From Vibrio sp. 10N.286.49.B1 (GTDB lineage Bacteria > Pseudomonadota > Gammaproteobacteria > Enterobacterales > Vibrionaceae), in NCBI RefSeq assembly GCF_002873335.1, contig NZ_MCUW01000027.1:1-64000 (forward strand): 64,000 nt of DNA, in the 5' to 3' direction. The notes under the pieces are model-generated. The model saw only the letters and a list, made by a program, of their open reading frames with translations. It was not told the DNA's origin and did no database searches. How positions within the stretch are numbered: the first letter of the stretch is position 1; each line of letters starts with the position of its first letter. Both the position numbers and the translations under genes were made by a program. Shown here one piece after another: positions 16,325 to 35,768 of the stretch.

Positions 16325-16360
16325 AATATACTCCTAGCGCTGGTTAACGACGGTACGACG

Positions 16361-17510: not shown

Positions 17511-17526
17511 TGCACGTACTGTGCCA
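17511..17526 (-). promoter_or_regulatory. Sigma-54 promoter of sypPQR
   Basis: Minus-strand TGGCACAGTACGTGCA has the GG (-24) and GC (-12) dinucleotides exactly ten bases apart. It lies about 35 bases before the sypP ATG and 60 bp downstream of the palindrome at 17586-17600. Confidence 0.85.
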
Positions 17527-17585
17527 TGTTTTTATTTGTGAAATTTCAATAATTTAGTGGGTTTTTTTATGCCCTTTACTCCGTG

Positions 17586-17600
17586 TTCTCAAATTGAGAA
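17586..17600. promoter_or_regulatory. SypG-type enhancer palindrome upstream of sypP
   Basis: TTCTCAAATTGAGAA, a perfect 7-1-7 palindrome, lies in the gap between sypO and sypP. The same 15 bp recur at 21110 and 33315. V. fischeri SypG sites also contain TTCTCA. Confidence 0.85.
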
Positions 17601-17625
17601 TCATTTTTAATCTTGGCGCTTTAAG

Positions 17626-19050
17626 TTAGTTACATTTCGGTATGGCGGTAACAATAGGAAGTCCCGACACTTGTTTTAGCTGTTGCTTGGTTCTGATAGT
17701 GGTATCAAACAGCTCTAATAAAATGGCAGTTCCAATCCCTAATGCAATCCCGCCGATTATTCCCGCTAAGATAAAGAAGAACGTGGGCAGGTTAGTGGGT
17801 ACGCTGGGGGTAAATGGCCTGTCGATGATCTTTACCCGTTTGTTTTGTTCGAAGACACTGAGTGATCCAGTCAACTGAGCCATCTCATACCGCTGTACTA
17901 ATTCATCATAAAGCTGGCGTTTCAATCCTACGTCTCGGGTGAGCTCTAGTAGTTGCTTCGCATTGCTCCCGTAGGTTTGTGACGTTGACGTGAGATCGTC
18001 AATCATCGTTGTTAGGCTCGCTGTTTCTTGTTTGAGCGATTCGTATTTTCCCCGAACGAGCTGTAAGCTGTGTAACTGCGTAATCAAAAGAGGTTGCAAG
18101 TTAGTCCTGTCATTACCTGATGACGCACTAGCAATTCCCCATAGTTGTTCGCTGTCCAAAGAAGACTGTTCGGAATTGAGCAGTAACGTTCTTTCTTGTT
18201 CTAAACGTTGCAGTTCGCGATTTTTAGCCTGAACGGCACTATGATTGCTGGTGTATTTGGCTTTAAGTAAGGTAAGTGCACTGCGTGTTTCAATGATTTG
18301 TTCTTCGATTCGCCCGACTATCGGGTTGGTTTTAGAGAGCTGTTGATCGAGTGTACCCAGGCTTTTCTCGACCCCTGAAAGTTCCGCTTCCTTTTCAGCT
18401 AGAGTCTGCCTTAGGGAAGCAAGGCGACTAAGGTTTTCGTTTTGCATTTCAGGTGTTGATGACGAGAAACGATTATAATAGTCCGCTAACGCGAGCTCGG
18501 CTTCGTTGAGCTCCTTTTTCCGTTTGTCGATGTGAATCGCAAGGAACTCACTGGAATCACGGATGGATGATCGTTCCGGCGCGAGAAGCTCTTCAATGAA
18601 GTGGATACTGACCGATTCGAGTAACGCTTTCATGCCGTCAGGGCGGTCAGCGGTGTGCTCAATTTTGATAAAGTCTTTGCTTAACTGCGTCACCTTCAAG
18701 CTAACGGCTATCTTGCTGATGATACGTTCGATATCATCGGGACGCATATTGTCATTGATTAGTCCAAGGTCAAATGCCACGGATCTCAATACATGACGAC
18801 TATTTAGCAATGTTTTCAGAGCCGTGATTCGGTCTTTTAGCATGGTTGAGACGGCCAAATCTTCAAGGAAAGGATTCATTTTTGCCGTTTCTTGAATCAA
18901 CATACTGGTATGCGCTTTATATTTAAGTGGAGCAACACCGCTGATGGCAAACGCAATAATTGGCATCAGTAAGATAGGAATCACAATGGCGTATCGGCGT
19001 CGCCAAGCTGCACTGAAAATAATTAAAAGGCGAAATTTTAGTTCATTCAT
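17626..19050 (-). CDS. sypO: SypO-like polysaccharide chain-length (Wzz/GumC-type) protein
   Basis: A 474-residue polysaccharide co-polymerase with a membrane helix near residues 15-35 (IPILLMPIIAFAISG), a long periplasmic part rich in coiled coil (about 180-380), and a second membrane helix near the C-terminus (FFFILAGIIGGIALGIG). It probably sets polymer length together with SypL and the exporter. There is no C-terminal kinase domain; SypD would be the separate ATPase partner. The ATG at 19050 overlaps the sypN stop (ATGA) and follows GGAG; the 15-codon upstream extension is not used. Confidence 0.85.
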   Translation of the reverse strand: MNELKFRLLIIFSAAWRRRYAIVIPILLMPIIAFAISGVAPLKYKAHTSMLIQETAKMNPFLEDLAVSTMLKDRITALKTLLNSRHVLRSVAFDLGLINDNMRPDDIERIISKIAVSLKVTQLSKDFIKIEHTADRPDGMKALLESVSIHFIEELLAPERSSIRDSSEFLAIHIDKRKKELNEAELALADYYNRFSSSTPEMQNENLSRLASLRQTLAEKEAELSGVEKSLGTLDQQLSKTNPIVGRIEEQIIETRSALTLLKAKYTSNHSAVQAKNRELQRLEQERTLLLNSEQSSLDSEQLWGIASASSGNDRTNLQPLLITQLHSLQLVRGKYESLKQETASLTTMIDDLTSTSQTYGSNAKQLLELTRDVGLKRQLYDELVQRYEMAQLTGSLSVFEQNKRVKIIDRPFTPSVPTNLPTFFFILAGIIGGIALGIGTAILLELFDTTIRTKQQLKQVSGLPIVTAIPKCN

Positions 19051-20168
19051 AGCGACTCCAAGTAACGTTCTAATGTTACGACTCGGTTGTCCCAACTTTC
19101 GTTATCAACAATCCCTTCTGGCAACAGGTCAGGGCGTGCCTCAAGTTGTCTGAGTGTCGAAATCAACGATGTTTTGTCTTCTACAATATTGATGTGAGTA
19201 CGATAAGGGTCGAGCGCTGGAAACTCTGTAGTGACAATAGGGCGTCGTGCGGCTAGGTATTCTTTTAGTTTTAAAGGATTGCAGGCTTCTATCTGGGAAT
19301 TATTTAAAAACGGTAACAAGCTAACCGTCCAGTGTTGACTATAACTAGGCAATTCAGAGTGAGGTCTAGGCCCAAGGACAAAGACGTTATCTGCCTTTAC
19401 GAGAGGGTTCGACTTCATTTCATTTGGCCCGATGAAGACGAAATCCCAATCAGGCATTTCGACGATAACTTGGTTAAGAAGCTCATAATCGAGCCAACTA
19501 GAAAGGCTGCCATAAAAACCAGCGATAGGTCGGTCGCCATCAGGGAGATCGTTCGCCCGTATGCTTGGGGAAGAAAATAATTGGCAGTCAACCCCATGTG
19601 TTAGTAGGCGCTGTTTATCTACGGGAAATTTGTGTTGTAGCTTCTCACTGGCGGTGAGAATCATATCAGCTTGTTCAACAAGGCGTCTTTCATGCTCGCG
19701 AACCGTGTGGTGGTCTACGCCGGCGAGTGCTGAAAAGTCATCGCCACAATAATACACCACACTTGATTCCCCAAGGGTGCCGCAAAGATCCGCGACTGTT
19801 GGCAGGGATGTCCATAAAATGGGGCTATTAAGGTTGAGTTTTCGTATCCATGGCTTTATTTGAGCACGAGTGAGTACCGCTGCTACTATGCGCCCAAACT
19901 TCGAACTAGGAGCCGGAATAGTTCGCACGTTGATCACTTGAATCGAAGATGGGATGTCCGAAGATTGCATGCCAACCTGTGCAGACTTTCCTCGGCCAAG
20001 TAATTTTTGGCCCACTCGTGTTAGGTCTGCTTTGTTGAAGCGAGGCTGGCGTAAGCCTATGGAATTGACCCAAAGCACTCGTCTTGTATTCGCGATGCGG
20101 CTGATGAGATGTTGCGTGCTAGAAGGCAGAGCCCCGTAGTCTTCGCCAAAAACGATGAGATCATTCAT
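19047..20168 (-). CDS. sypN: SypN-like glycosyltransferase
   Basis: A 373-residue GT-B glycosyltransferase of the TuaH-like type. Its N-terminal part reads NDLIVFGEDYGALPSSTQHL; the C-terminal half has VFVLGPRPHSELPSY and ACNPLKLKEYLAARRPIV, the nucleotide-sugar region. The ATG at 20168 overlaps the end of sypM by eight bases; the frame is open for 49 codons further upstream inside sypM, but those codons do not look like protein. The sugar it adds is unknown. Confidence 0.83.
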   Translation of the reverse strand: MNDLIVFGEDYGALPSSTQHLISRIANTRRVLWVNSIGLRQPRFNKADLTRVGQKLLGRGKSAQVGMQSSDIPSSIQVINVRTIPAPSSKFGRIVAAVLTRAQIKPWIRKLNLNSPILWTSLPTVADLCGTLGESSVVYYCGDDFSALAGVDHHTVREHERRLVEQADMILTASEKLQHKFPVDKQRLLTHGVDCQLFSSPSIRANDLPDGDRPIAGFYGSLSSWLDYELLNQVIVEMPDWDFVFIGPNEMKSNPLVKADNVFVLGPRPHSELPSYSQHWTVSLLPFLNNSQIEACNPLKLKEYLAARRPIVTTEFPALDPYRTHINIVEDKTSLISTLRQLEARPDLLPEGIVDNESWDNRVVTLERYLESL

Positions 20169-20988
20169 GGGTATTCTCCTGCTCGTTATTCTCAACATCG
20201 TGGTCTTGGTGAATCTTTTGTTCACGGATAACAGAGAGGACGTCTGCGTCTGATGACGCAGTGTCAGCAGTGATAGATTTGATGACTTTCGCCGGAGAGC
20301 CTGCGGCGATGACAAAGGGCGGTAAATCGTGGGTCACAACGCTGCCGGCGGCGACAATGGTACCTTGTCCAATGCGCACTCCAGTTTGTACCGTGACATC
20401 TGATCCTAACCAAACATCTTGCTCCAAAACTATGCTGCCAACACGATAATCTTCATCGGGTTCACCTTTTGCTCGCTTGACTGCGTCCAGTGGATGACCA
20501 GAGTAGCCGAAAAGTTGGCAGCGACCCGCGATACGTACATTGTCTTGTAGCTCAATAGTTTGCCCTATTGCCATCGTCACTTGCCAGCCGATGCCGACAT
20601 TGTTACCAATGATAAGTTGAGGGACACTAGCGCTGGGTGTGGTAGTCGAACGCCCGCTGAATGTTGTCTGGCCAGAAATTCTACATTGATTGCCCACACT
20701 GATGCTCACCGGTCCTGAGATGAATGGCAATCCACCGTAAAGATAGAGAGCCTGCCCACACTGTTGCAGACGCCCTTTAAAAGCAGGTGTATAAACAAAT
20801 ACTCGGGTGAGCGTTGCAAAAGCATCTCGAGCAGATGTACAAACAATATAGAGACTTTTGTTGAACCAGCGAGGCGTAGGTAAGCTTGCGTTGCGACACT
20901 GTTTTAAGAAGACAAAAAGACGCGGCCCCCAGGGGCTAGGATGATTCTTCAACCAATACTTTAAATTGTGCGCTGTGACAAAGCTCAT
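20161..20988 (-). CDS. sypM: SypM-like hexapeptide acetyltransferase
   Basis: A 275-residue left-handed beta-helix acyltransferase. From about residue 120 it shows the hexapeptide repeat pattern (IGNNVGIG, VRIAGRCQLFGYSGHPLD, VWLGSDVTVQTGVRIGQGTIVAAGSVVTHDLPP), ending with the AGSPAKVIK motif of sugar O- or N-acetyltransferases. It probably acetylates a syp sugar. The acidic C-terminal tail is unlike the usual family end. AGGA about eight bases before the ATG. First gene of the sypMNO unit. Confidence 0.87.
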   Translation of the reverse strand: MSFVTAHNLKYWLKNHPSPWGPRLFVFLKQCRNASLPTPRWFNKSLYIVCTSARDAFATLTRVFVYTPAFKGRLQQCGQALYLYGGLPFISGPVSISVGNQCRISGQTTFSGRSTTTPSASVPQLIIGNNVGIGWQVTMAIGQTIELQDNVRIAGRCQLFGYSGHPLDAVKRAKGEPDEDYRVGSIVLEQDVWLGSDVTVQTGVRIGQGTIVAAGSVVTHDLPPFVIAAGSPAKVIKSITADTASSDADVLSVIREQKIHQDHDVENNEQENTHE

Positions 20989-21034
20989 TCTGATCGTCCT
21001 TTTAGTATCAAGCGTTTGAGTTAACTAAGAGGGT

Positions 21035-21050
21035 TACAAGAATTGAGCCA
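21035..21050 (-). promoter_or_regulatory. Sigma-54-like promoter of sypMNO
   Basis: Minus-strand TGGCTCAATTCTTGTA. The -24 GG is present; the -12 element is GT instead of GC, so it is weaker than the other three. Support comes from its position: exactly 60 bp from the enhancer palindrome, as at sypP, and 47 bases before the sypM ATG. Confidence 0.65.
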
Positions 21051-21093
21051 TAAAATAATTAGCTAATTATCAATGGCTTGGGTTTGAATTCTA

Positions 21094-22470
21094 TTATTGC
21101 TGAGGACGATTCTCAAATTGAGAAGCAATTTGTGATACCGCAATAGTGAGAGCGGCCAGAATGTAAATGGGCCAGTTGAATCCTTGTGTCAAAAAGGTAC
21201 CAGATATTATCGTGCCGATTAAGCCGCTGTAGACAGCGATAGCCATGGCTTTTAAATAAGGTGGTGCCGAGGTTGTGCTGTCGAGTTTGCGAAGTGTACT
21301 TGTCGCACAGCGAACAAGAGAAACGATAAAGATAATAAACAGTCCTAGCCCCAAAAAACCGGTCTCCGCTAACACACCAAACCATGTACTGTGAACCGCG
21401 TGATTGAGGCCATCCCAATGCGGGCTGTAGAAGTAGTAGTTGTAATAGAAGTTGTTCAAACCGACGCCGAAAATGGGATTGTCGAGTGCCATTTTAAACG
21501 CGGCTTCCCAAGCGTAAAGACGCCCCATTGCTGATGCATCAATGCCAGCTTCTGCTGCTCCTCCGGATGCTCGACTAGAAATACCCGCTACTGCATAGAG
21601 TACAACCATGGCTGTGGAAGCCACAAAAACAAGCAAAGTTTTAGACGGGATTAATCGCCAAGCATAAACGCCCAATACTGCCAGAGAGCCTAGTAAACCG
21701 CCACGGCTTTGCGTCGCAATGACGGCCATCATTAATAGGAGCGAGGTAATGAAAGATAGGGTTCTAAAGCCTTTGTTGATACCGTTGGTTGTGGCGATCG
21801 CCACTGAAAATGCTAATGGAAACATCAATACCAAGGCTAAATCGTTGGGGTCGCCTAACATTGACCCGAAGTCCCGTCCAATTGTGACTCGTGAACCTTC
21901 CACCAATCCAATCCCATTCACCGAATTGAACAATGCAACGCAGCTCACTAAGAAACCCGAAATAATCATGAGAACAGAAAATCTAGACAGCTCCTTGGGT
22001 GAGGTAATGAGCCATGCAATTGCCAACGTCATTATCATGATTTTCCAATAGGTGCCTTTAAACATGGTCATCGCGACGTCACGGTTGGCTGCTAGGAGGA
22101 CTCCAATCAGGACGATACCCCAGAAGGCGAATAGCCAAATAAAGCAGCGGTGCCAAAATAGCGTGACCTGACGGCTGATGAGTGTATGCCAGAGCAGCGC
22201 GGCAAGTGCACCGGCGGAGAGCATTAACGGAATTCTAAGGGGGTAGAGCGCTGGAAATACTTCATGGATTCGAAAAAAAGAAAACACAACAAACAGTAAT
22301 ACAAGCCAAAATGTTTGGCTCAACACCACTAAAATAGCAATAGGTAATAAGCTAATCACCACTGCGAGAATAGGGTGCGGGACCAAATACCAAATAAAAC
22401 CAACGGTCAGCGTCAACACGATACTCAGTGTGCAGTGATGCTCTGTAGTGCTTTGGTGAGTGACTGACAT
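21094..22470 (-). CDS. sypL: SypL-like O-antigen ligase/polymerase family protein
   Basis: A 458-residue multi-spanning membrane protein (10-12 helices) of the Wzy/WaaL O-antigen ligase superfamily, presumably polymerising syp repeat units in the periplasm. The large loop near residues 320-360 contains GVGLNNFYYNYYF and HAVHSTWFGVLAETG; the latter holds the conserved His-containing motif of the family. It directly follows sypK (TAGATG). Its last codons (SQFEN) overlap the SypG-type palindrome used by sypM. Confidence 0.85.
   Translation of the reverse strand: MSVTHQSTTEHHCTLSIVLTLTVGFIWYLVPHPILAVVISLLPIAILVVLSQTFWLVLLFVVFSFFRIHEVFPALYPLRIPLMLSAGALAALLWHTLISRQVTLFWHRCFIWLFAFWGIVLIGVLLAANRDVAMTMFKGTYWKIMIMTLAIAWLITSPKELSRFSVLMIISGFLVSCVALFNSVNGIGLVEGSRVTIGRDFGSMLGDPNDLALVLMFPLAFSVAIATTNGINKGFRTLSFITSLLLMMAVIATQSRGGLLGSLAVLGVYAWRLIPSKTLLVFVASTAMVVLYAVAGISSRASGGAAEAGIDASAMGRLYAWEAAFKMALDNPIFGVGLNNFYYNYYFYSPHWDGLNHAVHSTWFGVLAETGFLGLGLFIIFIVSLVRCATSTLRKLDSTTSAPPYLKAMAIAVYSGLIGTIISGTFLTQGFNWPIYILAALTIAVSQIASQFENRPQQ
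21110..21124. promoter_or_regulatory. SypG-type enhancer palindrome inside the sypL 3' end
   Basis: TTCTCAAATTGAGAA overlaps codons for SQFEN near the sypL C-terminus, so the site is kept within coding sequence. It is identical to the sites before sypA and sypP. Confidence 0.83.
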
Positions 22471-23877
22471 CTAGCGCTCCCTCAGGTATAGGGAAGGGAA
22501 ATTGATATGAGAGAGACGTTGCAATATGAGCGTGACCACTAGCACACAAATAGGGGCGAGCAACGATAGCACAAGGCGTGATTCAACTTGCGTTACTTGG
22601 CTTGATAATGAGATTAAGACGACGGTTAAAAGTATGATAAACGCGACAGGTAATACATTGTATTCTAGTCGCAATAGCCGTTGGCTGACGATATAAACGG
22701 CAATAAAGCGAACAAACCCGACAGTACATAACGTGGTCAAAATACCCATGATGCCCCACTGACTAGCAATGGTTGCTAATAGGATACCTGCGGCTGCGCA
22801 TGCGGAATTAATCACCAGCAATTGTTTGGTTTGCTTGCGATAAAGAATACCAATATTGGTGATTTCAGACAGCTCTTTGAACAAGGCAATAATGAGGACT
22901 GGAACAATATAGTTAATTGCTGAGTGGTAGGTGTCTGGCAACGCGGCGGTAATAAACAAAGGGGCGATGAAGCTCATGCAGGTGGTGACGATACAGACAT
23001 AAATAAGGCCGGCTTGGGTGATTTTAACCGTTTGACTATTTCCGGCTGTTCTAAGGACATTGAATCGTTTTGGCATCCACCACATCCCAAATGGTTGCAC
23101 TAACAAGCAAGCGGCAAGCGCAAACTTTGCCGCGATGGCATACCAACCTAACTCAAGTAATGATGTGCTTGCAGCGAGTATCCATTTTTCTGCCCCACTT
23201 AACCCAAAGGCAACCACACCCGAGCCAACGATAGGGAGGGTGTACCATGTGTAAGTCTGTATCGATTTCAAACTTGATGTTCTGAGCGAGAGTCGATTGA
23301 CCCACTGCAGCGCGATGATTTGAATCAATGTTGAAATGAGGGCCGCCCATAAGATACTGGCAACGGATGCTTGTGTGGTAAGCGCAACGACAATCCATAA
23401 CACTTGGACAAGGCTCGCGGCTGAACTGATGGCTAAGAACAAGCGAGCTTTGTCTTGCATTCGCAACCAAGCGGTGGCAATAGACAACGGCCCGGTAAAC
23501 ATCACAGTGATGAGGGTAAGGACAAGTTCTTGGCGAGTGATGGGCAGTAGCGACTCATTAGGGATGAACAGCGACGCCACTAAGACGATCATAGTGATAA
23601 TGATGGCGACGAAACAAGACAACGTAAACAGCTTACTGGCGATGACATATTGTTTTATTAATGAACGGTAATGTCCTGCGAAGCGATACAGGGCCTCGTG
23701 AAGGCACACGGTGATGAACAAACCAATAAACACGCCGATGGTGGCAAGTAATTCTAATCTACCTATTTGCTCAGGCGCTAGATAACGCGTGATAAAAGGC
23801 AGCATGATCAAAGAAAGACCTCGAGTGATAACAATGCTTAGTGCATAGGTGAGAAACTGATGCCATGATTTATTCAT
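22471..23877 (-). CDS. sypK: SypK-like polysaccharide flippase (Wzx/MATE-type)
   Basis: A 468-residue protein with about 14 membrane helices, of the MVF/polysaccharide transporter superfamily, likely flipping the lipid-linked syp unit to the periplasm. The N-terminus FLTYALSIVITRGLSLIMLPF and the PEQIGRLELLATIG loop are typical of Wzx. I start it at 23877, where GAGG lies about seven bases upstream; a start four codons earlier would include that site. It overlaps sypJ by eight bases. Confidence 0.86.
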   Translation of the reverse strand: MNKSWHQFLTYALSIVITRGLSLIMLPFITRYLAPEQIGRLELLATIGVFIGLFITVCLHEALYRFAGHYRSLIKQYVIASKLFTLSCFVAIIITMIVLVASLFIPNESLLPITRQELVLTLITVMFTGPLSIATAWLRMQDKARLFLAISSAASLVQVLWIVVALTTQASVASILWAALISTLIQIIALQWVNRLSLRTSSLKSIQTYTWYTLPIVGSGVVAFGLSGAEKWILAASTSLLELGWYAIAAKFALAACLLVQPFGMWWMPKRFNVLRTAGNSQTVKITQAGLIYVCIVTTCMSFIAPLFITAALPDTYHSAINYIVPVLIIALFKELSEITNIGILYRKQTKQLLVINSACAAAGILLATIASQWGIMGILTTLCTVGFVRFIAVYIVSQRLLRLEYNVLPVAFIILLTVVLISLSSQVTQVESRLVLSLLAPICVLVVTLILQRLSHINFPSLYLRER

Positions 23878-25069
23878 TGGAAGCCTCATGCAGCATGGCT
23901 GGCTTCGACAAGGACATGATCGACGTTAGGATATCACGATAAACATTATCGGCTTGGTAGTGCTGAGCGTACTCGAGAGCGGCAATACTGATGTTTTCTC
24001 TTGCTAAGTGGTGTTGAGCGATAAACTGGAGCTTGCTCGCCAGAGATGATGCGTCATTGGCGGTGTATTTGATGCAGTTTACCCCGTCGGTGAGTTGGTT
24101 GTCCCAATAAGCCCCGTCGTGCGGTATAACTGGACACAATCCTGCCGCCATTGCTTCTAATATCGATAAGCCAAATGGTTCGTTAACACTTGTTGAGACG
24201 AAGATACTCGAGTTCATACGAATTTCATCAAGATTATTGGGCTGTTGGTGCCAGGTGATTCTAGGTGTATTTTGTGGCGCGACACATTGATCTTGCAGTG
24301 CAACCATCTTACTGGGTCTTATATAGCAAACGTCGCCGCTTATTGGCTGTGTCTGCCGAGAAAGTGCTTCGGTCAATAAATCTAAATTTTTCCATTTGAG
24401 TAATGATGCGGCCCAAAATACACGTGCACGGCTTTGATTGCGTAACCTTGGCCATTGCGCCACGCTCAACCCATTAATAAAGCGTGACGCATTAATATCC
24501 TCTAATGTGAGAGGTTTTGTAGCGGCAGTCGCGGCGAAGTCGCTGTGCTGACTCGGTTGGGGACTCAAGTTTAACGCAATCAAAATCGACTCTACTGCAC
24601 TATCGAGATAATAGATTTTATCAGCGTTCTTTAAACACCAAGCGACAGAGCGTGAGTTTCCAACGGGACCGTGAATAAATTGTAAAACGGGGTAGCCAAA
24701 CCAGCGTTTAAGAAAATACAAAGGCATATCAGAACCAGGCTGTGTCGAGCCAACAAGAAGCGATACTTTTGGTAACCAAGCGAGATAAATCAGGCACCAG
24801 AATAGTCGGTAGGCTAACAACAAATAGAATGCGCGACCTTTTAATTTAGAGACCACTGAAGCGAACGGAATAGAGAGAATATTGACGGGAATGTGGCCCT
24901 GCAGACCCGTGTTTTCCCACCCTTTTGGATGAGCCGTGATAACGCTGACGGTCATATTCGGTTCGTCACAAAGCGATAAAATACTTTGAGTTGCTACTTT
25001 AGAGCCGCCATGAAATGGCATAGGGTCAAAAACAACGATGTGACGTGATAATGTGTTTTGATTAAGCAT
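23870..25069 (-). CDS. sypJ: SypJ-like glycosyltransferase
   Basis: A 399-residue GT-B (GT4) enzyme. HIVVFDPMPFHGGSKVATQSI near the start is the Gly-rich acceptor loop. The C-terminal VSTSVNEPFGLSILEAMAAGLCPV is the nucleotide-sugar motif with both glutamates. It starts within the last codons of sypI (eight-base overlap), so the pair is translationally coupled. Confidence 0.86.
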   Translation of the reverse strand: MLNQNTLSRHIVVFDPMPFHGGSKVATQSILSLCDEPNMTVSVITAHPKGWENTGLQGHIPVNILSIPFASVVSKLKGRAFYLLLAYRLFWCLIYLAWLPKVSLLVGSTQPGSDMPLYFLKRWFGYPVLQFIHGPVGNSRSVAWCLKNADKIYYLDSAVESILIALNLSPQPSQHSDFAATAATKPLTLEDINASRFINGLSVAQWPRLRNQSRARVFWAASLLKWKNLDLLTEALSRQTQPISGDVCYIRPSKMVALQDQCVAPQNTPRITWHQQPNNLDEIRMNSSIFVSTSVNEPFGLSILEAMAAGLCPVIPHDGAYWDNQLTDGVNCIKYTANDASSLASKLQFIAQHHLARENISIAALEYAQHYQADNVYRDILTSIMSLSKPAMLHEASNE

Positions 25070-26264
25070 TGTGCATGACTCCTGTCCAATAACGTTGCGC
25101 TAAGGTTTTTAATGGTCTGAACGCTGCGAAAAGAGAGGTTTGGCGATTGTTTTGATTGGAAATCATGACGTCATATACACGTTGTAATGCATGCGTATTC
25201 GCTTCAATGCTCAGATTATTGGAGATATAGTTGTGAGCTTGTTGGCTAATCTTTGGTGCTAATGTGTCATATTGCTCGATAAGAGTCTGCCAACAGTCCA
25301 GTAACTCACGGTCGTTGTCATACAGTAAGGCACTGACATTGTGTGTGACAAATTCAGGGATACCACCAATGTTTGGAGCAATAATTGGCAGTTGCGCGAG
25401 CCCCGCTTCTGCCACTACTAACCCGAAAGCCTCTTCTCTCGCCCCGCTAATGAACCCGTCGACACCACCTTGTAGCCAAGCCGCCACGTTATCTTGCTCA
25501 CCAACAAACGTGACCTGGTTATCTACCTTTAGGTGCGTAGCCAGAGATTGCAACGCCTGATTAAGCTCACCGTCACCAATAATGAGCAGGTGCGGAGGGT
25601 TGAGTGTTGTCTTCAGCGTGACCAGTGCATTGAGCAGCCTGTCGATACCTTTACGATGTATCAGGGAACCGACCGTAGCAAACAACAAGGTTGAGTGTTT
25701 GATGCCGAGCCTATCTTTAACCCAGCTTGGTTGATGGGTGATAACTGAGGGGTTTGCGATGCCGTTGTGGATGACCTCTAATCTTTGTTTTGGGAATCCA
25801 TCTGATAGTAGGCTCTCTGAAATGGCATGACTCACGGTGACGACCGTTGGTGATAGGTGTATCGCTAACCAGAAACGATCACTCAGTAAGTAATCGGAAT
25901 GCAGCTGTGTGACCAGCGGTGTTTTGGTGTACTTAGCAACGAGATTCATCCACTGGCATGGTGCGCCGCTGTTGACGTGTATCGCATCGACAGTGTTGTT
26001 ACGAATTAGTGTTCTTCCTTTCAATACGAGCGACAACCAATTTTTCACATCAAAGTTAGGCTGGTATCCGCCCATCATCAAAGTGAACGAATCAAGATAC
26101 GAGGACACGCCTTGGGAGATAAGTTTATCGTGTAGCGCTGGGTTATTGGTCCAAACGATGGGGCAGAAGCGCTGGGTTTCTAAGCTGCCAATTAATTGAA
26201 GTAAGCATTGCTCACTTCCTCTAATCCAGTTATCACCAAAATGAACGTATAAAATATTTTTCAT
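25062..26264 (-). CDS. sypI: SypI-like glycosyltransferase
   Basis: A 400-residue GT4 glycosyltransferase. The N-terminal domain begins ILYVHFGDNWIRGSEQCLL, and the C-terminal motif is SGAREEAFGLVVAEAGLAQLPI near residues 273-295. First gene of the sypIJKL unit, with a sigma-54 promoter about 40 bases before the ATG and an enhancer half-palindrome further up. Sugar specificity cannot be read from sequence. Confidence 0.86.
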   Translation of the reverse strand: MKNILYVHFGDNWIRGSEQCLLQLIGSLETQRFCPIVWTNNPALHDKLISQGVSSYLDSFTLMMGGYQPNFDVKNWLSLVLKGRTLIRNNTVDAIHVNSGAPCQWMNLVAKYTKTPLVTQLHSDYLLSDRFWLAIHLSPTVVTVSHAISESLLSDGFPKQRLEVIHNGIANPSVITHQPSWVKDRLGIKHSTLLFATVGSLIHRKGIDRLLNALVTLKTTLNPPHLLIIGDGELNQALQSLATHLKVDNQVTFVGEQDNVAAWLQGGVDGFISGAREEAFGLVVAEAGLAQLPIIAPNIGGIPEFVTHNVSALLYDNDRELLDCWQTLIEQYDTLAPKISQQAHNYISNNLSIEANTHALQRVYDVMISNQNNRQTSLFAAFRPLKTLAQRYWTGVMHNA

Positions 26265-26303
26265 ACTTGCCTCTGATTCTATGCTTATTTAATAAAGGAA
26301 TAG

Positions 26304-26319
26304 AGCAAAGACAATGCCA
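26304..26319 (-). promoter_or_regulatory. Sigma-54 promoter of sypIJKL
   Basis: Minus-strand TGGCATTGTCTTTGCT, with GG and GC ten bases apart and a TTGC -12 core. It lies in the 202-bp sypH-sypI gap, about 40 bases before the sypI ATG. Confidence 0.83.
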
Positions 26320-26390
26320 ATTAAATTTTAACCATAATAACAGTGGGTTAGTGGTTTTTTATAACACAGGTCAGTTCAATGGATGGAATG

Positions 26391-26405
26391 TTCTCATTAT
26401 AGGAA
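26391..26405. promoter_or_regulatory. Degenerate SypG-type enhancer upstream of sypI
   Basis: TTCTCATTATAGGAA: the left half matches the palindrome of the other three sites and the right half keeps only GAA. It lies 72 bp from the sypI promoter, close to the 70 bp seen at sypA. Weaker SypG binding here is an inference. Confidence 0.6.
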
Positions 26406-26466
26406 TCAGATTGAGACGACCATTGAGTAAGGGAGCAAGGACGATGGCTAACGATCAAGAAGGGGC

Positions 26467-27531
26467 TTACTTGATTAGTCGTTGATACAAGCTGATAAAC
26501 TGCGGTACGACAACATCGGTTGAATAGGCGTGTTTAATGCGTTCTCTTGCGGCTTGGCAAATACTACGACGTTGCTGCTGAGATAAGGTCATCCAATGAT
26601 TTACTTGAAGTATCATCTCTTCAGAGGTGTCGACAATCCAACCACTCGAACCCGTCGTAATCAACTCGGGCAGCTGACCAAGAGGAAAACTGATGACGGG
26701 AATGCCTCGCGACATGGCTTCGAGTGCAGCCATCGGTAATCCTTCGAATTGAGAGGTTATCAGGAGTATATCAATGGTTGGCCAGACGGTATTCATTTGG
26801 CTCTGCTGACCATGAAAAACGACGTTATTAGAGGCATGGTTGATGAGGGCTTCTCGCATTGGCCCATCACCATAGATATTAAACTGAGCGAAGTGGCAGT
26901 GCTTGGCGATAGATAAGAAACGTTGGGGGTCTTTTTCTTCACTCAAGCGCCCTACAAACCCTATGGACACGTTTTGGGTCTTATTACTGTCTTTTTTGCT
27001 GTTATCTTCATTAGGGACAGGGACGAAATTATTAATGAACCTTGCACGTGACGATAAAGGCAGCTTGTTAAGAATGAGCTGACTGACGGCAATTCGCTCA
27101 TGATTCATTAGGGAGCTGTAGCGATCAATCCAATCATATATTTTCACACGCCCAGTTGGTGTTTCACCTGCGTGAAAAGACGCGACGTAGGTAATTTTGA
27201 AGGAACGGTGGCGTAATTTCGTGAGTCGACAGAGAATATTGGCTTTATAGCCGTGAGAGTGAATGGTTGTCGGTCCATTGCCATCGAGTTGCGCTGCCTT
27301 GATGGCCAAACCAATGTGCGACCATTGAGGTTGGTCAGGGTAATGGGTGCTCAATACCATGTGGGGCACATCATTTTGGTCGAGCTTATCAACGACCGCG
27401 GAGCGTTCCCCGTAGTCGCTGAGCAGCACGACGTTCACTTGTTGTCCATGGCTTATTAACCCTTTGGCAAGTTCAACCACATGGGTTTCGATCCCACCAA
27501 ACCCGCTGCTATCAAGTACTAGCCAAATCAT
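26467..27531 (-). CDS. sypH: SypH-like glycosyltransferase
   Basis: A 354-residue GT4 glycosyltransferase. LDSSGFGGIETHVVELAKGL is the N-terminal acceptor loop; TSQFEGLPMAALEAMSRGIPV near 260-280 is the C-terminal nucleotide-sugar motif. It lies 18 bases after sypG, so regulator and enzyme share a transcript. Confidence 0.86.
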   Translation of the reverse strand: MIWLVLDSSGFGGIETHVVELAKGLISHGQQVNVVLLSDYGERSAVVDKLDQNDVPHMVLSTHYPDQPQWSHIGLAIKAAQLDGNGPTTIHSHGYKANILCRLTKLRHRSFKITYVASFHAGETPTGRVKIYDWIDRYSSLMNHERIAVSQLILNKLPLSSRARFINNFVPVPNEDNSKKDSNKTQNVSIGFVGRLSEEKDPQRFLSIAKHCHFAQFNIYGDGPMREALINHASNNVVFHGQQSQMNTVWPTIDILLITSQFEGLPMAALEAMSRGIPVISFPLGQLPELITTGSSGWIVDTSEEMILQVNHWMTLSQQQRRSICQAARERIKHAYSTDVVVPQFISLYQRLIK

Positions 27532-27549
27532 GATGCGTTGAACTTAGTA

Positions 27550-29034
27550 TTAGTACGCACGATCTTCCGCTTCCCAAGCTTGTTTCTTTCGATAGACGGT
27601 GGACGGGCTTAGTTCTAGTAATACTGCTGCTGTCAGGACATTGCCATCACAAAAATCAATCGCCTGCTGGATGGTTTCTCGCTCAATTTGCCACATTGGC
27701 CGTATATTATCGGTTTGAGTCACGGAGTTGGTTGACACATCTGTGGAAACATCAATCATCGCTTGGGCATCACTTTGCGTCGCTTCGTTTTGGCTAACAG
27801 GAGGCAGGGTCGTTGGTGCCTCGAAAGTCGAAGGCTGGGGAACGAGGTGTGGTTTAGTGATTGACGCTCCTTTGATTTCTTTTGGTAAATGCTCAATACC
27901 AAGTGATTTATCGTCGTTAAGTACCACTATATTTCTAATGATATTTTGCAGCTGCCTGACGTTGCCAGGCCACTGATATTTCTTGAAATACCTCTTTGCA
28001 TCTTGAGTGATGGATTGGAAACTTCTCTTATCTTGTTTTGCGTATTGCAACAGAAAGTGTTCAGCAAGTGTCACGATATCGTCACCACGTTCACGCAAAG
28101 GCGGCATATGAACCGGTACCACATGCACTCGGTAGTAAAGGTCTTCTCGAAAGCGGCCCTCTTGGACTTCGAGTAATGGATCTCGGTTGGTGGCACAGAT
28201 AATTCGAGTATCGACCTGGTGCTCCTTTGTCCCACCAAGTGGAGTAAAGGTTCCAGTTTGCAGAAAACGAAGTAGTTTCTTCTGCATCTCTAAATCCATC
28301 TCGCAAAGTTCATCGAGAAATAGGGTCCCGCCATGAGCGAGAGAAGCTGCGCCTTTTCGATCGGTGGTTGCCCCTGTGAATGCTCCTTTCATATGACCAA
28401 ATACTTCACTTTCCATAAGATCTTTGGGTATGGCACCACAGTTGATGGCGATAAAAGGCTTGTCTCTTCTGTCGCTTTCATTGTGGATAGCATTCGCACA
28501 CACTTCTTTTCCGGTGCCACTTTCACCGATAACAAACACACTGGCGTTGGTGTTCGCAACTGCATCGATAATTTTGTATACCCCTTGCATGGGAAGGCTA
28601 GCACCAATAAAGCCATGAAAATGCTGTCGATCCATTCGTTGTTGAATATCATCAAGCATCGTTTCGAGTTTTGCTTGCTTCAAGTGGATGCGAATTGAGG
28701 TTTTTAATCGGTCAGCACGAATCGGCTTTTCTAAAAAGTCTTTGGCACCCTTTTGGATAAGGTTGACGGCAATGTCGACACTACCATGTGCTGTCGCGAT
28801 GATGACGGGCACTTGCAGATTTTGTTCTGCAATCCACTCCAATATGACTTCGCCTTGCATATCAGGTAATTGCAGGTCAAGAATCACTAATGAAGGTAAC
28901 GTCCGCTCTAAGACTCTTTTAGCTTCACCGCCAGTCGCAACGTGTATGACGTCGTAAGGCTCATCTTTTAAGAACTGCGTGTAGAGTACTGCCAAAGACG
29001 ATGAGTCCTCAATCAGAAGTACTTTCGGTGTCAT
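27550..29034 (-). CDS. sypG: SypG-like sigma-54 response regulator
   Basis: A 494-residue NtrC-type activator: receiver domain (residues 1-120) with the acidic pocket at IEDSS and phospho-acceptor D53 in ILDLQLPDM; AAA+ domain (about 145-375) with Walker A GESGTGKE, the GAFTGA sigma-54 contact loop and Walker B GTLFLDEL; and a C-terminal Fis-type helix-turn-helix (NVLTAAVLLELSPSTVYRKK). It is expected to bind the TTCTCA palindromes and activate the four sigma-54 promoters. The start at 29034 follows AAAGGA; a 13-codon upstream extension is unlikely. In V. fischeri sypE and sypF precede this gene; here sypD does. Confidence 0.93.
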   Translation of the reverse strand: MTPKVLLIEDSSSLAVLYTQFLKDEPYDVIHVATGGEAKRVLERTLPSLVILDLQLPDMQGEVILEWIAEQNLQVPVIIATAHGSVDIAVNLIQKGAKDFLEKPIRADRLKTSIRIHLKQAKLETMLDDIQQRMDRQHFHGFIGASLPMQGVYKIIDAVANTNASVFVIGESGTGKEVCANAIHNESDRRDKPFIAINCGAIPKDLMESEVFGHMKGAFTGATTDRKGAASLAHGGTLFLDELCEMDLEMQKKLLRFLQTGTFTPLGGTKEHQVDTRIICATNRDPLLEVQEGRFREDLYYRVHVVPVHMPPLRERGDDIVTLAEHFLLQYAKQDKRSFQSITQDAKRYFKKYQWPGNVRQLQNIIRNIVVLNDDKSLGIEHLPKEIKGASITKPHLVPQPSTFEAPTTLPPVSQNEATQSDAQAMIDVSTDVSTNSVTQTDNIRPMWQIERETIQQAIDFCDGNVLTAAVLLELSPSTVYRKKQAWEAEDRAY

Positions 29035-29167
29035 ATCGAGATCCTTTGCTTTTCTTGGTATATCCCTATGCATTAATCATAGACGAAAAGTCAGGCGGTG
29101 TTATTGAAAAGTATCAGTAACAACCTGAAACTAATAGCGATAACACAAAAACTCATCTCAACAACAC

Positions 29168-29890
29168 TTAAATTGACAGCGACAAAAACGAACTGTTGTT
29201 CACTTTGTTCTTCAAACGAGTCATTAAGCTTTGAGGTAGCCAAGGCAGCCGGTTTAATTCCCGACAAATCTCTGCAGATAACGTAGGTTGATGTTGGTAA
29301 TTAAGAATGGTCCCTAATATTTGGGTGTGCTCTCCTTGGGAAAGGCGTCGCACCGCTTGCGAGACTTGATTAACGAGCGTAACACCACCCAAAACAACAA
29401 GGAATGTGCCATCGCAAGCATTGGCAACACAAGATGCAGGGATATTATTTTTGTTAACGTTAAGAATGGGAGAGGTATCGATGATTACTCGATCAAATTC
29501 GGTAAGCCAATTCGCCACTTCTTGCCTTAAAAAATGTGGGTCTTTATAGGCTAAACGCGTTCCTGGGTCACTAGGGGCAGAGACGCCAAGAAAAACCTTT
29601 GGTGAGTCATTGTGTTGCACCCAAGTGCTAGAGCCATGAGCTTGCTCGTTGAGAGAGTCATCCTGTTGTGACCCAATTGACAGCGGAGAAAGTGTCGGAT
29701 GATTGAGGTTTAGATCGACCAGTAAGGTCTTGTGTCCCGCAAGGAGGTATCGTTCAGTTAAGGCTTGAGCGATGGATGTGGTTCCCTCGGCCTCGTTACA
29801 CGCAGAGATACATAATGAGCGGCATTGATGCAGCTCAGCACTAAGATAAATGTCTTCAATTTCTGAATGCGTAGACGGAATCGTCATCAT
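29168..29890 (-). CDS. sypD: SypD-like CpsD/CapB-type ATPase with degenerate P-loop
   Basis: A 240-residue protein of the polysaccharide-associated tyrosine kinase (BY-kinase) fold. Walker A' LLVDLNLNHPTLS (near 57-69) and Walker B VIIDTSPILN (near 135-145) are recognisable. The Walker A region reads ACNEAEGTTSIAQAL where active kinases have a GKST-type loop, so the conserved lysine appears to be missing. The C-terminus lacks the usual tyrosine cluster. It probably works with SypO in export or length control, perhaps without autokinase activity. ATGA overlap with sypC. Confidence 0.82.
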   Translation of the reverse strand: MMTIPSTHSEIEDIYLSAELHQCRSLCISACNEAEGTTSIAQALTERYLLAGHKTLLVDLNLNHPTLSPLSIGSQQDDSLNEQAHGSSTWVQHNDSPKVFLGVSAPSDPGTRLAYKDPHFLRQEVANWLTEFDRVIIDTSPILNVNKNNIPASCVANACDGTFLVVLGGVTLVNQVSQAVRRLSQGEHTQILGTILNYQHQPTLSAEICRELNRLPWLPQSLMTRLKNKVNNSSFLSLSI

Positions 29891-31995
29891 AGTGCTCCTA
29901 TTAATACGATAGTGGTTGTTAGTCTTAGGATATCAGTAAGCCCGATTCGCGCTTTTTCGGCGAAGCTGTCACGTCGATCTGGGATGTAAATGGTATCGCC
30001 CGCACGTAGGACTGGCAGTTTTCGAATGTCGGCTGTTTTACTGAAGGAGACTAAGTCAAAGGTGCGAGCTTGGCCTTGGCAGCAAGACATATTGACGACA
30101 CTGATTTTTTCCATGTAGGCTTTGTCGCTTGGACCGCCAGCTTCGGCTAAAATGTCCAGAATCGTCATGTTGTCATTAAAGCTATATCGACCTGGGTTGT
30201 TGACTGCGCCTAGTACTCGAATGGTTTCTTCCTTAGGCGTATCTAGCCAGTTTTTGTCTTTTTCTGGCAGGTAAATGGTATCGCCTGGTCTTACGCTTGG
30301 TAAGATAGTCTCATCACCGGTTTCAAAATAAAGAGACAAATTAAGTTTACTCACTTTAGCGTACGTTTTATCACGGTGAGTGACGCGGATATTGTGAATG
30401 TCAGCATCCTTGGTAGGCCCATCGGCTGCCGATAAAATATCAAGAAAATGCATCTCATTGGTGAATCGATAACGTCCGGGTGCGTTCACTTGTCCGAAAA
30501 CATAAATCGAGGCGTCTGAGCTTTGACGAACCCATTGAGATTTGTTGTCGGATGGGTCTTGTGGCAGGTCATGGATACGTATAAGGGTACCCGCTGTGAT
30601 GTACGGGAGCTCTGATTGTGGTGCGCCTTTTTTTATAAAGGTATCTAGATTGAAAACTGTCGTCTTGCGTCCGTTTGCAATTTCAATTTTTGTCGTATCA
30701 GCACGAAGCGTTGGACCACCCACGTGGGCAAGTAGATCCATTAAATCCATTTCATCAGACCATTCAATACGGCCCGGTCTCACTACCTCGCCGATAACGT
30801 TCACCGCGCGGTCAGGTGCAATCTTTAGCCATGATTTTTCATTCATGTCTGTTTTTTCAGGGACAAAAATAGCATCACCAGGCCCAATATCCGGTGCTTG
30901 GCCACCCTTCAAGCCTTCGGTGAAAGCTGTCATATCAAATCGAACCACTTTTCCCGTTGATTTAATGACGCGAATTTGTCGGGACTCTGCAAAACGAGTG
31001 GGGCCGCCAGCGTTGGCGAGAATATCCATAAAGGTGGCACCACGCTTGCCTTCATAAGCACCAGGGCTTGCGACTTCGCCCATGACATAGACGGTGTTTG
31101 CACCTGATTTTATTTCTTCTTCTTGGCGAGGAACAAAAATAGTCGCGCCTGCTTCAAGGGGAGGTAGCATGGAGACGTCCCCTGAATCTAAATAACGTTT
31201 TAAATTAAACAATGTCGGCGTGTTGTTACTGATAATCCTGATCTGCTCTACGCCAGCGTATCGTGTCACTCCTCCCGCTCGCATCAACACATCAACAAGG
31301 TCTGTGTTGGGCTTGTATGAAAATGAACCGGGCGCGTTGACTTCGCCAAATACTTTGACAGCCCGTCTTGCGTCAGCGCTGTCGCCTGCATCAGCCAGTT
31401 TAGCGGGATCAAATTCTTGTTCGATATTACCAACAAGAGGGGACGCTGGAACAAACAATGTGTCTAAGGACTGCAGTTGCGGTAAGTTGTCATTGTCGCC
31501 CGTATCCAAAAAACGTTTGTAATCAAAATTTTGTCGCTCAGCGCCACGCTTCAATATCATCTTGTTAAGTTGGGCGCCAGAGCGTAGCCCGCCTGCCGCG
31601 TGAAGTGCCATTTGAACATTAGAATTAAACGGCAGCGTATATTCACCAGGAGAGGTTACGTACCCTTGTACTGAAACAAGAATCTGTCTTTCAGCGATGT
31701 AGACCTGGGCATTGCTGGTATCACGAAAAGCTTGCGAAAGAGCCGTGCTCACAGTAGTGGCGAGCTGGGTTTCATCATAACCTGCCACAAAGATAGCACC
31801 GACTTCGGGTAGGGTAATACGACCTCGTTTATCAACTTGAAAACCGCGATTGAGTGTCGGTTCCCCCGGGAGATCAACTTGTATGAGGTCGCCTACCTGA
31901 ACCTGCTTGTCATCGGCAAGTGCATTAGGGGTAACAACCAGCCCAAGTAGGCACAATAAAGTCAAGATGTGAGCCAGCATTGCTTTAAACATCAT
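29887..31995 (-). CDS. sypC: SypC-like polysaccharide export protein (Wza-type)
   Basis: A 702-residue exporter with a signal peptide (about residues 1-27), a Poly_export domain beginning VQVGDLIQVDLPGEP, and then at least six SLBB-type repeats. These are marked by VQGYVTSPGEY, VFGEVNAPGSF, VMGEVASPGAY, VIGEVVRPGRI, VFGQVNAPGRY and VLGAVNNPGRY, about 90-100 residues apart. E. coli Wza (379 residues) has fewer, so this would build a tall periplasmic channel. The C-terminus has a hydrophobic or amphipathic helix (LTDILRLTTTIVLIGAL) that could form the outer-membrane pore. ATGA overlaps on both sides show strict coupling with sypB and sypD. Confidence 0.9.
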   Translation of the reverse strand: MMFKAMLAHILTLLCLLGLVVTPNALADDKQVQVGDLIQVDLPGEPTLNRGFQVDKRGRITLPEVGAIFVAGYDETQLATTVSTALSQAFRDTSNAQVYIAERQILVSVQGYVTSPGEYTLPFNSNVQMALHAAGGLRSGAQLNKMILKRGAERQNFDYKRFLDTGDNDNLPQLQSLDTLFVPASPLVGNIEQEFDPAKLADAGDSADARRAVKVFGEVNAPGSFSYKPNTDLVDVLMRAGGVTRYAGVEQIRIISNNTPTLFNLKRYLDSGDVSMLPPLEAGATIFVPRQEEEIKSGANTVYVMGEVASPGAYEGKRGATFMDILANAGGPTRFAESRQIRVIKSTGKVVRFDMTAFTEGLKGGQAPDIGPGDAIFVPEKTDMNEKSWLKIAPDRAVNVIGEVVRPGRIEWSDEMDLMDLLAHVGGPTLRADTTKIEIANGRKTTVFNLDTFIKKGAPQSELPYITAGTLIRIHDLPQDPSDNKSQWVRQSSDASIYVFGQVNAPGRYRFTNEMHFLDILSAADGPTKDADIHNIRVTHRDKTYAKVSKLNLSLYFETGDETILPSVRPGDTIYLPEKDKNWLDTPKEETIRVLGAVNNPGRYSFNDNMTILDILAEAGGPSDKAYMEKISVVNMSCCQGQARTFDLVSFSKTADIRKLPVLRAGDTIYIPDRRDSFAEKARIGLTDILRLTTTIVLIGAL

Positions 31996-32813
31996 TGAGA
32001 GCCTCCCGTATCATACGAGCTATCATCATCGGCGAGGACTTCAATACTCACGCGACGATTAGTCAGCTTCACGCCTTCTGAATCGCCTTCATAAAGCGGG
32101 AGTTCGTCACCTAGTGATTGAGTGTCAACACGATTGGGGTTAAGGCCAAAAATAGACAAGTAACGTTTCACTTGTTTAGCCCGGCCTAATGCTAGGCGTT
32201 CGTTATACTCTTCACCACCCGTGGCGTCAGCGTGGCCGGTGACGGACAAACGTATGGTAGGGTGTTGTTTTAGGATGTTGGTTGCTTCGGCTAAATGGCC
32301 CATGTACTTTGGGTTGACTTCAACTGAATCGTAGGCAAATTGATTATCAATATTTAGCAACCCATAGACTTCCTCAACCACAGCCATTAGGTTATCGAAA
32401 TCTTGTCCTTGCATGGGAGGCGTGCAAGAGGCTTGAGTGCGCACGTAATCAAGGCGAAGTTCAAGGTCATTCAGTTTCTGGCGTTGAATGACGATATCGT
32501 TGGCTGCGTCAATCCACAGTCCGCCCTCTAATTCTCTCGCGATTCTATTTTGCTTTTCTTGAGCCTGCAGTACCGCAGCAGGAAAACACCAATTGGCGCC
32601 TTCTCGAATGAGCGTTTCTAAATGCAGCTTACTGAGCTTCCAGTCGAACCTGAGTCCATGCTCTGGACCTAATGGCTCATCAGGCATGACCGGTGAAAAG
32701 TCAGACCCTGCATATTGTTCAGCGATGCCTCCGGTTCCTTCATCAGGATAACTGGTACATGCCGATAGAAGCATGACTAAACTGACCACTTTTAGGCGAG
32801 AAATTACATCCAT
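31992..32813 (-). CDS. sypB: SypB-like OmpA-family lipoprotein
   Basis: A 273-residue protein with a lipoprotein signal (SLVMLLSACTS, lipid-modified Cys near residue 19). Its C-terminal OmpA/MotB domain (about 150-260) has the peptidoglycan-binding pattern IRLSVTGHADATGGEEYN and LALGRAKQVKRYL. The middle section is probably helical (QEKQNRIARELEGG). It may anchor the export complex to the cell wall. It shares the sypA transcript, 42 bases downstream of sypA. Confidence 0.87.
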   Translation of the reverse strand: MDVISRLKVVSLVMLLSACTSYPDEGTGGIAEQYAGSDFSPVMPDEPLGPEHGLRFDWKLSKLHLETLIREGANWCFPAAVLQAQEKQNRIARELEGGLWIDAANDIVIQRQKLNDLELRLDYVRTQASCTPPMQGQDFDNLMAVVEEVYGLLNIDNQFAYDSVEVNPKYMGHLAEATNILKQHPTIRLSVTGHADATGGEEYNERLALGRAKQVKRYLSIFGLNPNRVDTQSLGDELPLYEGDSEGVKLTNRRVSIEVLADDDSSYDTGGSQ

Positions 32814-32855
32814 ATAACCATCCCTAGCTTAACGTGATGACGTGTCACGCTGTTA

Positions 32856-33191
32856 TTATAAGTATTCGTTGCTGACGTGTGTGTTGATCGGAATGGCTTG
32901 CCCAATCCGTAATAACTTCATGATTTGTAGCGGTTGTCCTGTTGCATTCTCGATTCGCATCACGCGTTCACGTTCAACAAGACGCTTATATAGATAAACA
33001 ATAGCACCGATGCCTGAAGAATCCATAAAGTGAACCTGCTTGAGATCAACTTCTACTTCATGATGTCCATCATTATGAATAATATGATCTATTTCTGTCT
33101 GAGCTTCACGGCTTCCTTTGGCATCAAAATCACCAAATAGTTGTACATGAAGTGTTTGGTTATTGTTGGCTTCTGCTTTGAGTAATTCCAT
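32856..33191 (-). CDS. sypA: SypA-like STAS-domain protein
   Basis: A 111-residue single STAS domain of the anti-sigma-factor-antagonist type. The phospho-acceptor loop reads HFMDSSGIGAIVYLYKR, with D57, S58 and S59; S58 is in the place of the serine of V. fischeri SypA whose phosphorylation by SypE blocks biofilm formation. No SypE is encoded next to it. GAGG lies about eight bases before the ATG. First gene of the syp locus, behind a strong sigma-54 promoter. Confidence 0.9.
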   Translation of the reverse strand: MELLKAEANNNQTLHVQLFGDFDAKGSREAQTEIDHIIHNDGHHEVEVDLKQVHFMDSSGIGAIVYLYKRLVERERVMRIENATGQPLQIMKLLRIGQAIPINTHVSNEYL

Positions 33192-33229
33192 GATTGTTGC
33201 CTCAGTGTTGGGTTAGACAACTAGGGAAC

Positions 33230-33245
33230 TGCAGCTTACGTGCCA
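33230..33245 (-). promoter_or_regulatory. Sigma-54 promoter of sypABCD
   Basis: Minus-strand TGGCACGTAAGCTGCA, close to the -24/-12 consensus TGGCACG-N4-TTGCA, with GG-N10-GC exact. It lies 39 bases before the sypA ATG and 70 bp downstream of the enhancer palindrome. Confidence 0.88.
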
Positions 33246-33305
33246 GAAATTAATTTGTTTTTAATCAATATGTTAGGTTTTGTAAAAAACAGAGTTCCCA
33301 AAATA

Positions 33306-33338
33306 AAAAAACGCTTCTCAAATTGAGAAGCGTTTTTT
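33306..33338 (-). terminator. ygiQ terminator containing the SypG-type enhancer (33315-33329)
   Basis: A perfect hairpin with 16-bp arms: AAAAAACGCTTCTCAA pairs with TTGAGAAGCGTTTTTT around one central base. On the minus strand it ends in a T-run 40 bases after the ygiQ stop, a textbook intrinsic terminator. Its core, 33315-33329, is exactly the TTCTCAAATTGAGAA palindrome found before sypM and sypP, so the same DNA probably serves as the SypG enhancer for sypA. Confidence 0.85.
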
Positions 33339-35610: not shown

Positions 35611-35768
35611 GTTTTGACCTCTAACTTTGGAGGCGCGCATTATATACTTCTAATCGAGAGACTTCAAAATTAAAGCTTTGTCAATAAAGAGCGTAGGGTT
35701 ATATGGAATGGGCATTGAGAGCAACAATAGTAAAGTGACTCAAGCTGATATATCATCAGCGCACTTTT

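Follow-up and report, generated by a model that had tools for sequence, protein, structure and literature searches.

In Vibrio fischeri, the syp polysaccharide locus is described as being read from four sigma54 promoters bound by the regulator SypG, with sypA, sypI, sypM and sypP leading the operons (PMC10804989), and the published SypG site is TTCTCANNNTGMDWN (PMC10162802). A syp-type polysaccharide locus was found on the minus strand of the first 64,000 nucleotides of contig NZ_MCUW01000027.1 of Vibrio sp. 10N.286.49.B1 (GCF_002873335.1; hereafter the window), where it extends from sypA (33191) to sypR (14492) in the order sypABCD-GH-IJKL-MNO-PQR, the syp names being given from order and likeness. 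Gene order, the four promoters, their sigma54 boxes and the operator are the same as those described for V. fischeri (PMC10804989, PMC10162802). The claim of a first-pass annotation of this DNA, that the four units are those known in V. fischeri, agreed with gene order, operator fit and promoters; control of syp by SypG and sigma54 as in V. fischeri is right and was already known. The window differs from V. fischeri syp in having neither sypE nor sypF, in carrying three exact full palindromes, and in the placement of two operators, that of sypA lying within a terminator-like hairpin behind ygiQ and that of sypM inside sypL.

The scv locus of V. parahaemolyticus and the rbd locus of V. vulnificus are likewise described as syp-like, devoid of sypE and run by a SypG orthologue. 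The scv locus lacks sypM and is described as mapped into two operons, whereas the window keeps four modules and sypM; scv is also described as lacking sypF, and the lack of sypF here is therefore not new. In sigma54 promoters assisted by integration host factor (IHF), such as nifH, Pu and glnH, a bend site lies between an upstream activator site and the -24/-12 box. The IHF consensus was found by sequence at this place in the syp promoters, weakly so at sypI of the window; the syp case differs from these promoters in that one activator serves four co-inherited promoters and that the spacing shifts by whole turns. In the LuxO/qrr system, the activator is a paralogue of SypG (48% identity between SypG and the LuxO of the same genome) and the distance to the qrr box of 60–63 bp resembles one of the SypG classes, whereas the eight Qrr loci have a single spacing class.

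What is new over the known regulon is the apparent helical quantisation, the position-fixed IHF-like site, and the candidate enhancer within a terminator-like hairpin. The whole model, which we regard as probable, builds on what was observed in sequence, spacing, positional conservation and hairpin covariation. Four SypG-activated sigma54 promoters would drive operons starting at sypA, sypI, sypM and sypP. Phosphorylated SypG would bind a 15-bp palindrome, and IHF, at a constant position ∼17 bp ahead of the -24 box, would bend the DNA so that SypG is brought to RNA polymerase–sigma54. Because the loop would be short, the operator would have to sit on one face of the helix, and its distance would evolve almost only by whole turns (gaps of ∼37, 48, 59, 70, and 80). 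In the ygiQ-linked clade, the sypA palindrome would also be the stem of the ygiQ intrinsic terminator; being both operator and terminator stem, this one element would therefore insulate syp from read-through and act as an enhancer. If the model is right, the known regulon becomes a geometric rule of promoter spacing, IHF becomes a likely participant in the activation of syp, and the locus exemplifies a naturally occurring enhancer housed in a terminator-like hairpin.

Comparison set and promoter modules

SypG was matched at E 1e-150 or better in 186 of 296 genomes of the family of the window, of which the weakest matches may be LuxO paralogues. These weakest matches were left out, and the comparison consisted of 80 syp loci of ∼20 kb each from the 186 matching genomes, together with the window. 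Genes in the loci of relatives were placed using the proteins of the window, the element with the highest score close to each homologous start was chosen as the sigma54 box, and the operator was the 15-mer with the fewest mismatches ∼10 to 245 bp upstream of the box, with no weight given to spacing. The promoters examined were those of sypA (69), sypI (64), sypM (73), and sypP (56).

All four modules of the window read on the minus strand, with the following elements:

33315..33329, minus strand: sypA operator, exact palindrome, part of the stem of a terminator-like hairpin on the ygiQ side
33295..33309, minus strand: second, degenerate sypA operator TTTTTATTTTGGGAA, three mismatches, 20 bp downstream of the first and 49 bp from the box
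33263..33275, minus strand: sypA IHF-like site TAACATATTGATT, no mismatches
33231..33245, minus strand: sypA sigma54 -24/-12 box TGGCACGTAAGCTGC
26391..26405, minus strand: sypI operator TTCCTATAATGAGAA, degenerate, two mismatches in 12 arm positions
26338..26350, minus strand: sypI IHF-like site TAACCCACTGTTA, weak, two mismatches
26305..26319, minus strand: sypI sigma54 box TGGCATTGTCTTTGC
21110..21124, minus strand: sypM operator, exact, within the 3' end of sypL
21068..21080, minus strand: sypM IHF-like site CAAGCCATTGATA, no mismatches
21036..21050, minus strand: sypM sigma54 box TGGCTCAATTCTTGT, non-standard -12
17586..17600, minus strand: sypP operator, exact
17544..17556, minus strand: sypP IHF-like site TAAATTATTGAAA, one mismatch
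17512..17526, minus strand: sypP sigma54 box TGGCACAGTACGTGC

SypG operator and sigma54 boxes

A scan of the window confirmed the annotated palindrome TTCTCAAATTGAGAA as exact at 17586–17600, 21110–21124 and 33315–33329, and as a two-mismatch copy at 26391. With up to three mismatches there were 14 strand-matches in the window against 3.55 expected, a number reached by none of 100 shuffles. The exact sites are full palindromes of 15 bp, as annotated, with 7-bp arms flanking one unpaired central base. TTCTCANNNTGAGAA is exact at four places in the whole 5.15-Mb genome, three of which are the syp sites; with up to one mismatch it occurs at 20 places, against 8 for a reversed control pattern. The operators of the window fit the published SypG site ahead of sypA, sypI, sypM and sypP, the sypI copy being degenerate, and a 15-mer identical to this copy precedes sypI in a relative (G195/L052). 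A rival sypI site, GTCTCAATCTGATTC at 26403–26417, has by our reading one mismatch to the published loose consensus, but its distance to the box is 83 bp, which belongs to none of the spacing classes.

Among the promoters compared, an operator with up to two mismatches was found at 58/69 for sypA, 60/64 for sypI, 65/73 for sypM, and 32/56 for sypP. Two or more operator-like sites (up to three mismatches) were present in 51 of the 69 sypA promoters, against 241 of 3000 random stretches with even one, and the distance within these tandem pairs was 20–23 bp in 50 of 65. The sypM operator was within the coding sequence of sypL in 52 of 64 loci, always in the same frame, so that SypL has SQNE, SQIE, SQFE or a closely similar sequence shortly before its C-terminus; it overlapped the stop codon in two loci and followed it in ten.

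The -24/-12 element annotated ahead of each unit was present at all four, and its form GG-N10-GC held at sypA, sypI and sypP and failed at sypM, which has GG-N10-GT. The sypM -12 dinucleotide was GA or GT in 62/63 promoters, while GC was found in 53/58 (sypA), 60/60 (sypI) and 32/32 (sypP), although the score used to pick boxes itself favours GC.

A position-fixed IHF-like site

When promoters were aligned on the box, TAA-N4-TTGATT was found at a constant position, its first base 30 bp ahead of the T of TGG. The IHF consensus, which we take to be YAANNNNTTGATW, was matched with up to two mismatches and within 1 bp of this place in 55 of 57 sypA, 58 of 63 sypM, and 30 of 32 sypP promoters, compared with averages of 3.0, 3.3 and 1.4, respectively, in shuffles. 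At sypI, the motif was inverted in 45/60 promoters, compared with 3.7 by shuffle. The fixed motif is a probable IHF site and would be part of syp activation; a module of palindrome plus sigma54 element, as first annotated, has both of these parts right and misses the position-fixed IHF-like one.

Alternatively, the modules could consist of operator and sigma54 box as in V. fischeri, without IHF, the motif being A/T-rich promoter sequence or a further SypG half-site, which we consider improbable. TTGA is common to the operator and the fixed motif, the spacer is A/T-rich, and the motif at sypI of the window is weak. However, conservation extends to a YAA element that precedes TTGATW by four bases (A in 81% at -29), TTGA is followed by T (51%) or A (41%) where the operator has G, shuffled spacers gave ∼3 matches against the 55–58 seen, and the motif is inverted at sypI, all of which speak against this alternative.

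PMC4573307, whose reference 38 is work by E. A. Hussa, mentions one IHF site predicted within the syp locus, and IHF at syp has therefore been suggested before. A fixed IHF place at the four syp promoters was not found in those parts of the literature that were covered by searches on SypG/IHF and on V. fischeri syp/integration host factor.

Helical spacing of operator and box

The distance from the 15-mer to the T of TGG is 59, 59, 69, and 71 bases at sypP, sypM, sypA and sypI, in agreement with the 60, 60, 70, and 72 bp to the sigma54 GG that had been annotated. For relatives, spacing counts omitted sigma54 scores <13.5, operators with more than two mismatches and gaps ≥100, and collapsed values are one per promoter per SypG cluster (34 clusters at 85%). 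The gaps clustered at 37–38, 46–51, 57–62, 68–72, and 80, with none at 52–56 or 63–67, and 91 of 92 collapsed values were in phase (R = 0.81, period 11.0 bp). Control distances from the same genomes were without period, both from operator to start (R = 0.09) and from box to start (R = 0.12). A pattern search for modules over 61 genomes of the genus, in which all operator–box gaps from 46 to 76 bp were allowed, returned 48 matches, none in the empty gap bins, with 27 coming from 19 genomes outside the first set. In V. aquaticus, the sole relative taken from one contig scan, the gaps were 48/70, 72, and 59 (sypA, sypI and sypM, as assigned by position). These patterns suggest that operator–box spacing is quantised in turns of ∼11 bp.

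Shared descent, in place of helical phase, is a very unlikely source of the spacing classes. Related genomes do have spacings in common, and tandem operators two turns apart account for part of the 48/70 switching at sypA, but Fitch counting on the SypG tree gave a minimum of 12, 8, 7, and 7 changes of class for the four promoters (at least 34 in total), and the control distances of these genomes have no period.

The sypA operator within a terminator-like hairpin

The sypA operator lies behind the gene upstream of the locus:

33379..35640, minus strand: ygiQ, a YgiQ-family radical SAM gene, with the sypA operator in its 3' hairpin
33306..33338, minus strand: terminator-like hairpin 3' of ygiQ, with 15 pairs, a 3-nt loop and a T run, fold z of -4.71, containing the operator

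A G+C-containing stem followed by a T run, the mark of an intrinsic terminator, was found at this hairpin. In all seven ygiQ-adjacent sypA loci seen, the sypA operator forms the stem of a terminator-like hairpin, and five other ygiQ-linked hairpins that were folded had z values of -4.2 to -8.9. Across the seven loci, 10 of the 15 pairs were invariant and four had compensatory changes, including the outer pair of the operator; 96.2% of hairpin cells paired, compared with 33–73% when the partner was slid by 1–3 columns. The terminator finder, which requires unbroken stems, missed L137 and L139, yet a hairpin is formed when L137 is folded, and likewise with L046, which comes from the same genome as L139. 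The palindrome of the sypA operator extends by 0–4 bp in 47 other loci, versus 8–10 bp in the five ygiQ-adjacent loci passing the filter. In one near relative (G035), where the two genes are 5.8 kb apart, ygiQ has its own hairpin (L138) and the sypA operator is without one.

It is scarcely credible that the sypA palindrome is a mere terminator hairpin resembling the operator by chance, for although it folds strongly with a T run, and although a hairpin of other sequence lies ≤240 nt from the ygiQ stop in 24 of 26 ygiQ loci without adjoining sypA (a count without chance control), its arms are letter-for-letter equal to the sypP and sypM operators and in phase (69 bp), sypA has an operator without a stem where ygiQ is not adjacent, and none of those 26 ygiQ 3' regions holds the operator (up to one mismatch).

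Going beyond a shared element, the two uses of the palindrome could also be coupled, which we put forward tentatively and hold to be rather doubtful. As DNA it would be the phased SypG enhancer of sypA and as RNA the ygiQ terminator; termination would keep transcription of ygiQ from displacing SypG from its enhancer, and SypG, once bound, may in turn make termination sharper.

In G035 and a second near relative, G273 (L050 and L051), ygiQ and sypA are separated by 5.8 and 4.1 kb, respectively. Weak matches to sypI and sypK (28–31%) were observed upstream of sypA in these two loci, and sypI, sypJ and sypK were not seen in their usual places.

Points weighing against the model

Several observations count against the model of phased, IHF-assisted SypG promoters with a terminator-borne sypA operator. 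The operator was recovered (up to two mismatches) at only 32/56 sypP promoters, carries two mismatches at sypI of the window, and is mostly weak at sypA in genus g11 (2 of 10); the fit of the six g3 loci is poor. Among the collapsed spacing values, a sypP gap of 40 bp does not keep the phase, and for sypM, two gaps (108 and 145 bp) were excluded from the counts. The forward-sense IHF-like motif occurs in only 4/60 sypI promoters, the site at sypI of the window has two mismatches, and the fixed motif could serve another DNA-bending protein. As for the hairpin, 4 of 105 stem cells are unpaired, two of them at the edge pair of the operator, further pair types in the seven stems were not above shuffles (5 vs. 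5.6), and terminator-like sites in 17000–35000 were no commoner than chance (17 vs. 17.5). For this strain we infer SypG binding, IHF bending, termination at the hairpin, the limits of the operons and dependence on rpoN.

Extent of the regulon and qrr

The search of the 61 genomes gave its 48 full modules against one for the reversed pattern, and 47 of them were at syp: 37 were ≤13 kb from a SypG match and 10 beside syp genes, leaving one elsewhere (in G176). In this last module (L185:2580), the operator is exact, the gap is 62 bp, and the IHF-like site is inverted and perfect; the stretch around it contains no syp genes, and SypG is 192 kb away. It is possibly an extra SypG target or a relocated sypI-type promoter.

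Within the genome of the window itself, no wider regulon was found among 15 of the 20 operator places (up to one mismatch), where in-phase boxes occurred at the three syp sites only. These boxes scored 16.5, 16.0, and 14.0 (the last being sypM), with a background 95% point of 14.5; the best boxes outside syp were one scoring 15.0 in L008, at 63 bp, and those scoring 14.5 in L007, at 101 and 159 bp. The locus had been annotated as a complete SypG regulon, but SypG is reported to activate qrr1 as well in V. fischeri (PMC10162802), and because no qrr was found here, completeness is unproven and the claim was not supported in this form. Specifically, a 2.1-kb stretch of the same genome including the region before luxO contained no Qrr match and no LuxO-type site (up to one mismatch). 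All eight Qrr loci inspected in relatives (L195–L202) had a TGG-N9-TGC box on the Qrr strand, with a LuxO-type 13-mer at a distance of 60–63 bp.

A conserved TGGCTAGG-TATGC element was also observed in L195–L202, on the other side of the LuxO-type 13-mer region. Beyond luxU in the genome of the window, a molybdenum-cofactor riboswitch was matched at 95.1 bits (L183:3039–3186).

Gene content of the locus and signal input to SypG

The genes of the locus were as follows:

32856..33191, minus strand: sypA, STAS domain
29168..32813, minus strand: sypB, sypC and sypD, with an OmpA domain, SLBB/export, and sypD without Pfam match
27550..29034, minus strand: sypG, with REC, sigma54 AAA+ and HTH_8 domains, its start being the second ATG of the open reading frame (ORF) at 29073
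26467..27531, minus strand: sypH
21094..26264, minus strand: sypI, sypJ, sypK and sypL
17626..20988, minus strand: sypM, sypN and sypO
14492..17476, minus strand: sypP, sypQ and sypR, with sypP taken from an in-frame ATG downstream of the sigma54 box

The longest sypP ORF begins at the -24 box (17476–17527 of the window); translation more likely starts at the in-frame ATG near 17476. The ORFs of sypD and sypG are ∼95 bp apart, so that neither sypE nor sypF is in the locus. A sigma70-like match (9 of 12) at 29076–29104, in the sypD–sypG gap, is a possible SypG-independent sypG promoter; such matches were not above chance in this region (22 vs. 28.9).

SypG of the window was 66% identical to the SypG of a relative with ORFs in the sypE and sypF places. 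It scored 602 bits against the LuxO model, below the cut-off of 800 bits, which the luxO of the same genome passes. A SypF-type histidine phosphotransfer (HPt) domain was found at E 0.1 in none of six genomes of the clade, this one included, and in all three controls, one of which was the genome of the query itself; a full-length SypF query gave only weaker matches here, the best being 34% over residues 217–708. The genome had seven HPt matches, two of them in short ORFs, and the short ORF after luxO fits the NCBI LuxU model at 129.7 bits, just under the cut-off of 140.

Since the locus is without sypE and sypF, the input would differ from that of V. fischeri. Loss of sypF is described as common in vibrios (PMC8941931). 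The residual syp biofilm of V. fischeri without sypF and with hahK overexpressed is reported to depend on LuxU (PMC12369376), which makes LuxU a likely donor here as well, and we infer that LuxU or the second lone HPt feeds SypG in this strain. In three relatives (L060, L069, and L074), a lone HPt-sized ORF of 129–143 aa was observed between sypD and sypG, at the place of sypF, and the one in L074 shared 43% identity with the HPt at the C-terminus of a SypF; these ORFs may represent a step between a full sypF and none.

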